64,000 nt of DNA from Xiphophorus maculatus (Eukaryota > Chordata > Actinopteri > Cyprinodontiformes > Poeciliidae). How positions within the stretch are numbered: position 1 is the stretch's first letter; every line of letters starts with the position of its first letter. The translations under genes and the position numbers were made by a program. The notes below the pieces were generated by a model. It was given only the letters and a program-made list of their open reading frames with translations. It searched no databases and was not told the origin of the DNA. This document shows, piece by piece, positions 46,011 to 52,000 of this stretch. The stretch lies in NCBI RefSeq assembly GCF_002775205.1, contig NC_036457.1, positions 7,642,024-7,706,023 on the forward strand. Direction: 5' to 3'.

Positions 46011-49000
46011 ATGTCCCCAGCATCGGCTCCAGAGGCCAGTGAGAGCAGCACAACCACGGTCCAAGAGGAGGCAGCGGCCAGTCCCAGGGAGGAGGTAAGA
46101 AGCTGTTCGCAGTGTTTAGATCACTCCAGATCAATGAGAGGAATAAATGAATACAGCCTTTAATCGGTTTGACTGATTTAATTAATAGGCTACCGGGATA
46201 GGTCTCTGCAGGCTAATGAAAACAACCTGATTAGGGTTTAAGTGGAGTCAGTGACTGTACAAAGGCCATTGCTGTGCATCTTTCAAAATGAGGCTCAGTG
46301 AGCCTCATTGGGGATCCTGAAGTGGATCCCAACAGGCAATCAAAGGTGTGAAAAGAAGAAAAACAAAGAAAGGGCCACACAAGAGCAAAATATACTCTGG
46401 CAGCGAAATATTTGATTTCCTCACTATAAAAACACGCAATTACTCATATGATTGCATGTAACTAAACTTGTTATTGATGAGTTGGCTGCATTTTTAAAAT
46501 GCAGCCAACTATAATATCACATCTTTCTTGGAGACTGCTGGATAAGTTACACATCCATTACACAAGAGGCTTTTTATGTAACCTAGCTGTTCTTATTATG
46601 TCAAGAAAAAGTATCCTTGAATGTGTGAGACATTTATTTAAAGGCACAATGAAGGGGTTTTTTTTTTCCACTCAGGAAGACTGCTGTCCTGATTTGAACT
46701 GAGCGCATAAAGTATCATCTCAAACTGTGGAGGCTTTTGTAGAATATACCGTAAGCTGGTGAGATACACAAGAAAATTCAAAATGTAAGTTTTCTGTCTA
46801 TTTCTGTTTTCTTTATATTTGGCTGTAAAATGAATGCAAGGGCTAATCAATGACTAAAAAAGGCAAATTGAAATAATGTCATGAAATACATTTTCCTTAA
46901 AAATTGGAGATTTCTGAATTATTACAAATATTATTATAATGTCTAGAGAAGCTGGTTACTCACAGGGTGTTGTATTCAAGCACATTAGTAGAATGTTTAG
47001 TGGAAGGAAAAAGTGTGGTTGCAAAAAAAAAAGAAAGTTTCAACAGCTAACACACACTGAAGTATCCAGGACATGGAATGCCAGTGTTGGATTTATTGTG
47101 TTAATCTACTTCTGAACCAGATACAACATATAAAAGTAAATTTTAGCATTTTAGTTGGAAAACAAGATGTCTCCAGACATCCCAGAGTCTGGAGACAGAG
47201 TGGAGAAAAACATAACCCAAGGTGCTTGAAATCAAGTGTGAAGTTTCCAGTCAGTGAGAGTTTAAGAATCCATGTCATCTGCTGTTGTTGGTCCGTCTGC
47301 GTTTTATCAAATCCAGAGTCAGTGCAGAAGCCTACCTGGACATTTTAGAACAGTTCACATGTCCCTCCTCTGAAAAGTTTTAAAGAGACGGTGGTTTGTT
47401 TTTCCATCAGGACTTGGCACCTCCCCACACTAAATAATGATTCCAACACTGTGACTGATTAACTAGCTAACCAACCTGAGACAAACCTCATAGTGAATCT
47501 ATTTTTGAACTGAATTTCAGAAATAAGCACATTGTTGATGATATTCTGAGATTCAGTCCTCCAGACTCTTGAATGCAAAGCATCGACAGAATACCAGTAT
47601 GATGTAAATGTTGATGATGAGGGCAAATGTTTCTGAAATCTGTAGTGAGTTTAACCCGTTTAACCCTTCGAGGCATTCTTGTGTAGCAGTTTGGTGTTAT
47701 TTACTAAGTGCAGGGTTTTTTCTTTGTTATTGTAACAGAAATGTCTGCCCTACAGTGTTTATAATGCTGAGTCATTTCCTTTCCTTCGCCTCTATCGGCT
47801 CTAATGACCAGCTCTTTCATGTTTTCAGGCTGTGGATATTTAATTGGCATCTCATTTGTTGCGACTAAAATTTCTGTGTAATGTTCCTTTCACATCAGAC
47901 CTGATCAGTTTCATCTAGAAAACAATCTTTTACTGCACACAGGTGCATTTATTTCCAAATTTCTTACACTCCAGAATAAAGTACGCATAAACATCATTGC
48001 CTTTGGTGTTTGAACAGAGCTTGTAAAATGTAACATGAGCCTAAAAGTATGTCATGTTGCATTGATTATTATCAGTGGAGTAAGAGCAGGGTTCTGTTGA
48101 GTAAATAGTCTTCCTGCAACTGGTTTATCTCAGTAGGGAGTTTCACTGTTTATCCCCTTTCCCCTGCAGGATGTTGCCTTATAGGTTGGCAAGACACTTG
48201 GGGATCATGTGACCAGGGTGGGGAGGATAACGGTTGGAGTGAAAAAACATCTATTATTTATGTTTGTCTGTCACTCAGAGAGCACAGAACCAATATGTCG
48301 GATTCATTATGAAACTAATGCATTAAACATGTAGAGTGCAAAAGTATTAGTCACGACCTGATTTAACAAGTCTAATGTAAATTATTTTGCTAGTGTCTCG
48401 CCTTCCTGAGGCTTTTGAATCTCAGTAGCTCTTCAGATTGGCTGTTAATGCTGCCGTTGTGACCCGCTTTTCTCTGGGGTGATGAATGATGCCATCGGCT
48501 TCATGCTACAGAAGCCAAATAAATGTTTGGCTTTATAGCTGAACCCTGCCACTGGCACCGCTGGTTGCTAACTATTTTACTGAATTGTAAGTACACTTAT
48601 TACTTATTCTACTGCAGTAATTTAATCTCAAAGTAAAGAATAAATAAAAACCCAGTCTTTCTTTTTGAAACAGTTATTTTACAAAATCACATATGCCTTG
48701 AATAATTCATGTAAAATACATGTAGCTGAAGCCTTTTTAACATTTATAATATTTATATAGAACAGCTTTTTCTGAAGTATAGGTCTGAGGTGAAATAACA
48801 GATGAAGATATCCTACTGTTAGATACAGTGGATAACCTGTAATGCTACAACCCCTGGCAAAAAGTATGGAATCACCAGTCTTGGATGAGCACTCATTCAG
48901 ACATTTCATGCTGTAAAACAAACTCAGATCAAAAACATGATACAATATTAAGGTCGTTCCAAAGTGCAACGTGTTGGCCTTCAGGAACACTCAAAGAAAT

Positions 49001-52000
49001 GAAGAGAAAACATTGTGGAAGTCAGTGAATGATACTTTTATTGACCAAACACAGGGAAATAAATATGGAATCACTCAATTCTGAGGAAAAAAGTATGGAA
49101 TCATGAAAAACGCATAAACAAAAGACCATTCAAAATACATCACTAGTATTTAGTTGCACCACCTTTGGCTTTTATAACAGCTTTCAGTCTGTGAGGCATG
49201 GACTTGATGAGTGACAAACAGTATTCTGCATCAATTTGGTGCCAACTCTCTTTGATAGCAGTTGCCAGATCAGCTTTGCTGGTTGGACCCTTCTTGTGGA
49301 CCATTTTTTTCAATCTCCACCACAGGTTTTCAATTGGGTTGAGATCTGGACTATTTGCAGGCCATGACATCGACTGAATGTGTCTTTCTTCAAGGAATGC
49401 CTTCACTGTTTTTGCCCGATGGCACGATGCATTGTCATCTTGGAAAATTATTTCATCATCACCAAACATCTGTTCAATTGAAGGGATGAGAAAACTGTCC
49501 AAAATGTCAATGTAAACTTGTGCATTGATAGAAGAATTAACCACAGTCATCTCCCCAGTGCCTTTGCCTGACATGCAGCCCCATATCATCAAGGACTGTG
49601 GAAATTTGGTTGTTTTCTTCAGGCAGGCCTCTTCATAAATCTCACTGGAACGGCACCAAACAAAAGTTCCAGCATCATCACCTTGTCCAATGCAGATTCT
49701 TGACTCATCACTGAAGACAACTTTCATCCAGTCATCCACAGTCCATGATTGCCTCTCCTTAGCCCATTGGAGTCTCGTTCTTTTATGTTTAGGTGTCAAT
49801 GCTGGTTTTCGTTTAGCTTTCCTGTATTGAAATCCCATCTCCTTTAGGCGATTTCTTACGGTTCGGTCACATACATTGACTCCAACTTCCTCCCATTTAT
49901 GCTTCATCTGTTTAGTTGTACTTTTTCGGTTTTCAAGACAAATGGCCTTAAGTTGTTTGTCTTGACGCTTTGATGTCTGTCTTGGTCTACCAGTACGCTT
50001 GGCTTTAACAACCATTCCATGCTGTTTGTATTTGGTCCATATCTTGGATACAGCTGACTGTGAACAGCCCACATCTTTAGCAACCATGCGTGAAGGGTTA
50101 CCTTCTTCAAGACGTTTCACAATCCTCTCTTTTGTTTCAAGGGACATTTCTCTTGTTGGAGCCATGGTTCTCACCACTCCACTTCGTCCAGCAGCCCTCC
50201 AAGGTGTCATGACTGCAGGTGTTTTGAACTGCACACTAACGGGCACATCTAATCTGGGGCAGGTGTCCATTTAGGGAAAGGAAATAGACTGGGTGTGTCC
50301 TTTTTTTTCTACCTCCAATTTGAGTGATTCCACACTTTTTTCCTCAGAATTGAGTGATTCCATATTTATTTCCCTGTGCTTGGTCAATAAAAGTATCATT
50401 CACTGACTTCCACAATATTTTCTCTTCATTTCTTTGAGTGTTCCTGAAGACCAACACGTTGCACTTTGGAACGACCTTAATATTGTATCATGTTTTTGAT
50501 CTGAGTTTGTTTTACAGCATGAAATGTCTGAATGAGTGCTCATCCAAGACTGGTGATTCCATACTTTTTGCCAGGGGTTGTACTTTTCTTGCAATCTTGT
50601 AAAATCCACATTATAATGGACTATTTAAAACATAAAGACATTTTAAATGAAAATCTGAGCATCTGAAAGAAACTTTTAAACGGATTTTCGTAGGCGTTTT
50701 AGCTGGATAATAATCTAAAACTTATATGGGTAAATCAACCCAGAATAGGATGAAAAGGAACACATTCAGCTTTCTTTCTTTCTTAGCTATTTCAGTACTC
50801 ATACCTAAATCCCAGGACTACGATAGAGATATTCAGCAGCAAACACTCAAGGTGGATTTGGGATACAACATATAATAAATATTTATATGTTTTTTCACTT
50901 AAAAAAAAGAGACTGCCATAACAAAAATATTAATCTAGATATTGAGTGTTTTTGGACACTGTTCATATCATCTAAGATGGCAAGATTTCAACCAGTCAAC
51001 CCATTGCAGATCAAAGCAGGCTTATATGAGACACGGTTCATGCTAAAATAACAAAAATAAAACAACAATGTACTGGTTTTGCTGTTTTTATGGTAATTTT
51101 CACCAAGACCTACAGAAAAATCCACACAACTGCAGTAGTTGTTTTGATTGTTGTGAAATCTTACTTTTGTGTAGGTATGGACTGGTAAGAGATAATTACT
51201 GTATTATAACCTTCAATAAAAGTGGTTTCACTGTATGATAGTGTTTACAAAGATATTTAAATTAAACATGATCTAATTTCTTTTATTTAAAAAAAGAAAA
51301 ACAAGCTGATATTTCTGCTGCAACTCACAAAATAACATTAATTAAGACAGTTATTATATCTTTTCTTTATAATTTATGTATTGCTATTTTGATATTATGC
51401 AAAAACATAGAAAAATGCAGTTTACTTCACACATGTCTGCTAATAGCTTCCAAATTAAAGCTTTACTAATAATAACTGTGGTGCATGGCATCCCTGCAAC
51501 ATTGCCATGTTTTTTTAGCAACCACACAGTAATTATCTGTGTTCTTTTACAAATGAGACATTTATAGACAAATGTTTCCTTTTTGTGAGCAAGAAAAAAA
51601 GTGTAGTAGCCTCCTTTTAGTCAGCTGACTGGCATTGCAGATCAGCAGAGAAAAAATTATGGGTTTTGGGACAGCAGTCTTCAAAACGATCTACCGAAAA
51701 CCACCCCTTGCATACTTTTATGAAAAAACTGAGCCAAGAAACACATCACCTAAAAATGTGAGACAGTATCTCAGTTGATTGGACCAGAACAAATAGATAA
51801 AAATGCTGAGCAGAACAAACTTGGACACCAGGGTCCCCAACTCTTTTACCAAATGTATGTAAACCGATAGAAATGACAGCTGCTGATAATAAGCTTTTAG
51901 ACTTGTCAGAAATATTTCCATTGCCAGTGTGTGAATCAGGTAATTGTTTATTGACTTGGACAGTTCAAAACATCAGGTAGGTTGATAGAACTCATGCATA

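Follow-up and report, generated by a model that had tools for sequence, protein, structure and literature searches.

Sleeping Beauty (SB) was reconstructed from salmonids. In lampreys and teleosts, the majority of Tc1-like frames carry interruptions (PMC3516227). The published accounts also contain native elements that move: ZB is a native, highly active Tc1 transposon of zebrafish (PMC7913693), the native Thm3 transposase of silver carp mediates transposition (PMC4683633), and Passport stands among naturally active elements in one source (PMC4683633), while another groups it with reconstructed ones, yet has in its reference list a title that calls it native (PMC7913693). Genomes with intact copies number 105/313 for ZB, 183/316 for ZB-like, 26/108 for SB and 36/258 for SB-like elements (PMC9777934). 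Here we analyze an element of this kind, located at positions 48848-50580 of a 64,000-nucleotide (nt) stretch of the Xiphophorus maculatus genome (contig C15:7642024-7706023; hereafter the window). It is very likely a complete, autonomous-type DD34E/Tc1 cut-and-paste transposon belonging to a low-copy family that spread very recently, a judgement that covers its structure, its mechanism and its recency. A previous sequence-only reading of this DNA had set it against a background in which most vertebrate Tc1 copies are broken, which holds for lampreys and teleosts, although many genomes contain intact copies, and in which active fish elements had to be reconstructed, a view outdated by ZB and Thm3.

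The evidence for recency comes from the other copies in the same genome (704,300,149 bp in 101 contigs). With the element as query, 40 of 73 first-look candidates, ranked by likeness to it, were scored; they gave 40 full-length places (L009-L048, the window copy included) that are 99-100% identical, all 40 with TA at both ends and 37 with an unbroken 340-codon frame carrying the catalytic triad, the frames of L026, L033 and L037 containing stops. An exact terminal 24-mer occurred 84 times (46 forward and 38 reverse, with none for the reversed control) and added 11 loci, for 51 altogether; such a probe detects unchanged ends only, and copies with altered ends outside the first 40 would escape it. 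Of these additional loci, eight are full-length and free of interruptions, L052 and L058 are truncated, and L050 carries an interruption; six of the 11 have an intact frame (scored here by the frame alone), so that the 340-codon frame is kept in 43 of the 51 loci. In L050 (C6:14947697-14950661), an insert of about 225 bp lies near element position 1425, outside the frame. L016 and L029 (C21:25475458 and C21:25432072) lie 43 kb apart with flanks matching at 996 of 998 bases and elements differing at one column; they represent a recent duplication, with the transposon present in each copy, and L029 was excluded from the counts of independent insertions because its flanks are those of L016.

TA flanks both ends of every one of the 47 independent full-length copies, whose mean identity is 99.55% (minimum 98.79%, gap positions excluded). 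Five identical pairs at different sites were found among them, and no two of the 47 are alike (>60%, ungapped) in the 60 bases adjoining the element. The same exact protein is encoded by 19 of 40 copies. The window copy (L009) differs by a single base from L010, on contig C10 and with different flanks, and is best read as a minor-lineage copy that inserted recently. The copies form a shallow, star-like tree, with three of 31 inner branches well supported by a bootstrap that had not settled. Ages were computed with a synonymous rate of 4.13e-9 per site per year from zebrafish (PMC7913693), which is borrowed and gives orders of magnitude: at this rate 39 copies have a mean pairwise age of about 0.5 million years (My), the split between the window copy and L010 dates to about 0.07 My (with 0.39 My as the upper bound), and the members of an identical pair diverged less than about 0.21 My ago. 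Since the copies are nearly identical, most frames are intact, some pairs are identical and the window copy has a neighbor one base away, the family is very recent and probably still mobile; on this view, the transposase would be made and working, and movement would continue today.

The anatomy of the window copy agrees with this picture. The element is complete, its coordinates are exact, and its features are as follows:

48848..50580, minus strand: complete Tc1/DD34E transposon, 1,733 bp; transposase on the minus strand; 39 other full-length places in the genome match it at 99-100% identity
48846..48847, no strand: TA target-site duplication, left (read from the sequence)
50581..50582, no strand: TA target-site duplication, right (read from the sequence)
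48848..49103, plus strand: left terminal inverted repeat, 256 nt (arm alignment)
50325..50580, minus strand: right terminal inverted repeat, 256 nt, four differences from the left (arm alignment)
48856..48875, plus strand: outer direct repeat of the left arm, a likely transposase site (motif score)
49055..49074, plus strand: middle direct repeat of the left arm, putative site (motif score)
49085..49104, plus strand: inner direct repeat of the left arm, putative site, spaced 30 bp from the middle repeat (motif score)
50553..50572, minus strand: outer direct repeat of the right arm, putative site (motif score)
50354..50373, minus strand: middle direct repeat of the right arm, putative site (motif score)
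50324..50343, minus strand: inner direct repeat of the right arm, putative site (motif score)
49143..50165, minus strand: transposase, 340 residues plus stop, in a frame open upstream to 50270 (375 residues); D153, D244 and E279 in the 340-residue numbering
49037..49042, minus strand: AATAAA, a likely polyadenylation signal about 100 bp past the transposase stop

With their TAs, the arms span 48846-49103 and 50325-50582, 258 nt each. They match at 252 of 256 positions, against a maximum of 98/256 in somewhat fewer than 20,000 random placements in the window; the four mismatches, at 48978, 49011, 49049 and 49095, are all transitions and none lies at a CpG. A 20-nt repeat occurs three times per arm, at offsets 9, 208 and 238, and these repeats are putative transposase sites. 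Scored with a motif written from the six repeats themselves and then run over element and window, they reach 18-19 of 20, the next-best score being 13 among the element matches listed and 15 in the remaining window. The 256-nt terminal inverted repeats and the length of 1,733 bp fall within the described form, 1.3-3.0 kb being the overall length range for SB and ZB (PMC9777934). No second copy of the element was found within the 64-kb window. The observed/expected CpG ratio is 0.29 in the element (48848-50580) and 0.47 in the window, a strong depletion; with copies this young, it suggests that the CpG-poor state of the family predates the burst.

The full open frame of the minus strand runs unbroken from 50270 to 49143 (375 codons), whereas ATG frames in 500 base-shuffled versions of the element reached 173 codons at most. 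An internal ATG at 50165, in the context ACCATGG, gives a product of 340 residues, which is most likely the actual transposase. The catalytic residues are D188, D279 and E314 in the 375-residue numbering, and the 34 residues separating the last two define the DD34E type. In Pfam, HTH_Tnp_Tc3_2 (PF01498) and DDE_3 (PF13358) exceed their cut-offs, while HTH_SB (PF25787) stays at 27.6 bits under a cut-off of 43, and HTH_32 and CENP-B_N are also under theirs. The element thus combines the traits of the DD34E/Tc1 group, namely (i) a TA duplication, (ii) a DD34E transposase of about 340 residues and (iii) Tc1-type DNA-binding and DDE domains. In such a system, the transposase would bind the direct repeats of both arms, the ends would be paired and the element excised, and insertion would take place at a TA that is duplicated in the process. 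The sequence-only reading had proposed an intact Tc1 transposon at 48848..50580 with TA on both flanks, one uninterrupted transposase frame with a DD34E triad, and terminal repeats of about 255 bp with about four differences, and in all of this it was accurate. The protein of the window copy differs from the commonest protein of the family at two residues; L010 and L013 have one of these changes as well, and the other is private and adjoins the GRPR-like motif. For this reason, even an active family would not establish the competence of the window copy itself. An intact frame alone is weak evidence, the chance of its survival at the divergence of the arms being 0.13-0.33 in a rough estimate with assumed indel rates.

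Further support for a clean insertion comes from two other sites. L023 and L048 are both inserted in members of an old dispersed repeat, about 75% alike to each other, with insertion points 8 bp apart by alignment. An uninterrupted relative of this repeat lies at 52220-52598 of the window, in the same intron as the element, with 68-69% identity; it aligns through both junctions, gap-free there, and keeps TA at the L048 site with CA at the L023 site. An uninterrupted relative without gaps is what a clean TA insertion would predict. The proximity of the two insertions in the old repeat points to a possible local target preference. No overall preference for AT-rich DNA was found at 39 sites (A+T 0.59 within 8 bases, 0.65 around the TAs of the window); the positions 3-4 bases out look A/T-rich at the same 39 sites, with 0.70 and 0.76.

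The similarity of the two arms, which the sequence-only reading had taken as a sign of recency, did not survive the comparison of copies. Copies belonging to identical pairs carry 7-9 differences between their own arms, the window copy carries 4 and L023 carries 1, and the arms of the window copy, read as a clock, give about 1.9 My (0.5-5.0), in contrast to the roughly 0.07 My obtained at the same rate from whole copies. Arm divergence was rejected as an insertion clock, as identical copies hold 7-9 arm differences and the arms seem to exchange sequence within copies of the family. Of 42 distinct minor arm alleles in 39 copies, 18 match the base that the same copy has in its other arm; 2,000 random draws gave a mean of 0.39 and a maximum of 4. 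A control at the level of single cells was weak, with 55/102 matches in register, 51/102 and 40/102 at shifts of 2 and 5, and 12-24 at shifts of 1, 3, 7 and 11, and part of the opposite-arm matches may be ancestral states that older copies have retained. By hand, a derived base seems to have been transferred to the other arm in at least six cases: a three-site run in L046, position 132 in L043/L044, positions 248, 24 and 202, and position 124 in L009, L010 and L012. The arms also vary more than the rest of the element (42 variable columns of 512 against 32 of 1,221 in the 40 copies L009-L048), and exchange may explain part of this. The copy set thus shows that arm similarity is unsafe as a clock. 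Altogether, the earlier interpretation is partly supported: its conclusion that the insertion is recent and that the family may still be mobile finds strong support in the approximately 50 copies, the 99.55% identity over 47 of them, the five identical pairs and the single base separating the window copy from L010, a better reason than the one it had given. The genome-wide search with copy count and pairwise identity that it had called for has now been made, and copies many percent apart were not met among those found, in searches that favor young copies.

Several points weigh against a very young, still mobile family. Older copies may be missed, as the searches favor young ones. Broken copies exist, three among the first 40 and, among the 11 others, three broken frames and two truncated loci. 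In addition, the in-frame changes over 40 copies comprise 17 amino-acid-changing, 5 silent and 3 stop changes, with a ratio of amino-acid-changing to silent polymorphism (pN/pS) of 0.95-1.37; because these changes look neutral, they give no sign of selection for function. A rival account is a burst that was recent but has finished, in which jumps occurred within the last few hundred thousand years, the copies are now silenced or fixed, and the frames are intact only through youth. Such an account shares structure and mechanism with a still-mobile family and differs only on present activity. It would accommodate the neutral-looking changes, the three stop-bearing copies of 40, the minor lineages up to 17 differences apart, and the fact that identical pairs bound the age only to less than about 0.21 My at the borrowed rate; we nevertheless regard it as rather unlikely, given that five identical pairs and intact frames in 43 of the 51 loci put the last movements near the present.

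Explanations that depart further from a mobile family fare worse. An older insertion whose arms look young through sequence exchange gains some ground from the apparent exchange between arms, by which arms alone could mislead, but is very improbable since the whole element is one base from L010, on another contig and with other flanks, unless conversion of whole elements between unlinked sites were common. The unbroken frame within an intron of a host gene might recall a transposase gene adopted (domesticated) by the host and no longer a mobile element; the retention of arms and TA duplication, about 50 dispersed near-identical copies and changes that look neutral leave this next to no probability. 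Propagation by segmental duplication, or an assembly error, instead of transposition would suit L016/L029, with the same flanks over 996 of 998 bases and 43 kb apart on C21; it is contradicted everywhere else by 47 full-length copies with unlike 60-base flanks and a TA site of their own, and we give it practically no weight. Returning to the transposon family that probably still moves, it is tempting to speculate, as a tentative and more detailed proposal that we put forward as possible but short of an even chance, that a DD34E/Tc1 lineage of natural origin, lying outside the SB clade and bearing three transposase sites in each arm, has recently reached this genome, possibly through horizontal transfer, and now mobilizes from native, unreconstructed copies, its arms being kept alike by exchange between them.

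The element lies antisense in intron 1 of a host gene, as exons at 46011-46094 and 52755-54197 join in one open frame with GT/AG borders. We take this gene to be tmem151b, the name given in the sequence-only reading, whose placement of the insertion in an intron is confirmed by the joined exons:

46011..46094, plus strand: presumed tmem151b coding exon 1 (frame join)
52755..54197, plus strand: presumed tmem151b coding exon 2 (frame join)

AATAAA occurs at 50386 and 49058 on the plus strand, the tmem151b sense strand, once in each arm, and these signals could end host transcripts early. Directly past the tmem151b stop there is a 40-nt inverted repeat (54379-54418 and 55031-55070, 83% complementary, 612 nt apart). 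The frames at 25397-26287, 52755-54197 and 60895-62675 resemble what we take to be slc35b2, tmem151b and tcte1, presumably in the order of human chromosome 6p21. At 60538-60619 there is a short palindromic, TA-flanked element with 34-nt ends that are 94% complementary, which looks like a Tc1/mariner miniature element with ends unlike those of the element at 48848-50580; a text search of papers for it gave no match.

Among distant relatives, the bacterial IS630 elements share the transposase family, with NCBIfam NF033545 above its cut-off, and are far diverged. A search of plasmid proteins gave 150 records, none of them reaching 60% identity (about 21-26% for the 15 records listed), a relationship at the IS630 level only; no match was found in plasmids by DNA or in phages by protein. 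Scans of genomic and viral contigs with the protein and with two-sequence profiles found no relative, a silence that says little as they comprise 2-6 short peptide patterns, and the terminal DNA pattern found no relative in viral contigs. The end sequence and peptides of the element had no text match in papers; Repbase and supplements were outside the scope of this search, so the family may already be described.

Compared with better-known systems, the element resembles SB in its 340-residue transposase, DD34E triad, long arms with direct repeats and TA target (PMC9777934, PMC7827188). Among solved structures, the SB100X catalytic domain (5cr4) is nearest to it in sequence, with 36% identity by BLAST and 38% by MAFFT. 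Catalytic domains of SB and SB-like elements share 68% identity, and those of the SB and ZB groups 58-61% (PMC9777934); since the present element reaches only 36-38% to SB where ZB and SB groups share 58-61%, it would be placed by its sequence outside the SB clade. It further differs from SB in its direct repeats, which number three in each arm as opposed to two in SB, whose left arm also contains a half-repeat (PMC7827188), in the linker (KPALT instead of K-PLL-S), and in that native copies are intact here. Tc1/mariner arms have two or three repeats, and three per arm are found in Bari1 and Bari3 of Drosophila, the latter having long arms and at least 10 identical copies in one genome (PMC4120734); these are insect elements, likened here by description only. 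With ZB (Tc1-8B_DR) and the ZB-like clade, the family has in common young native copies, an intact frame of about 340 residues, long arms and a TA duplication (PMC7913693, PMC9777934), while ZB measures 1,597 bp with 201-bp arms against 1,733 bp and 256 nt here, again a comparison by description only. The kind of element is already well known, and what is unusual is the fresh state of the family. As a young native vertebrate Tc1 family, it would allow transposition, insertion polymorphism and host silencing to be studied near their start, and its approximately 50 near-identical, mostly intact copies make it a candidate for gene transfer beside ZB.

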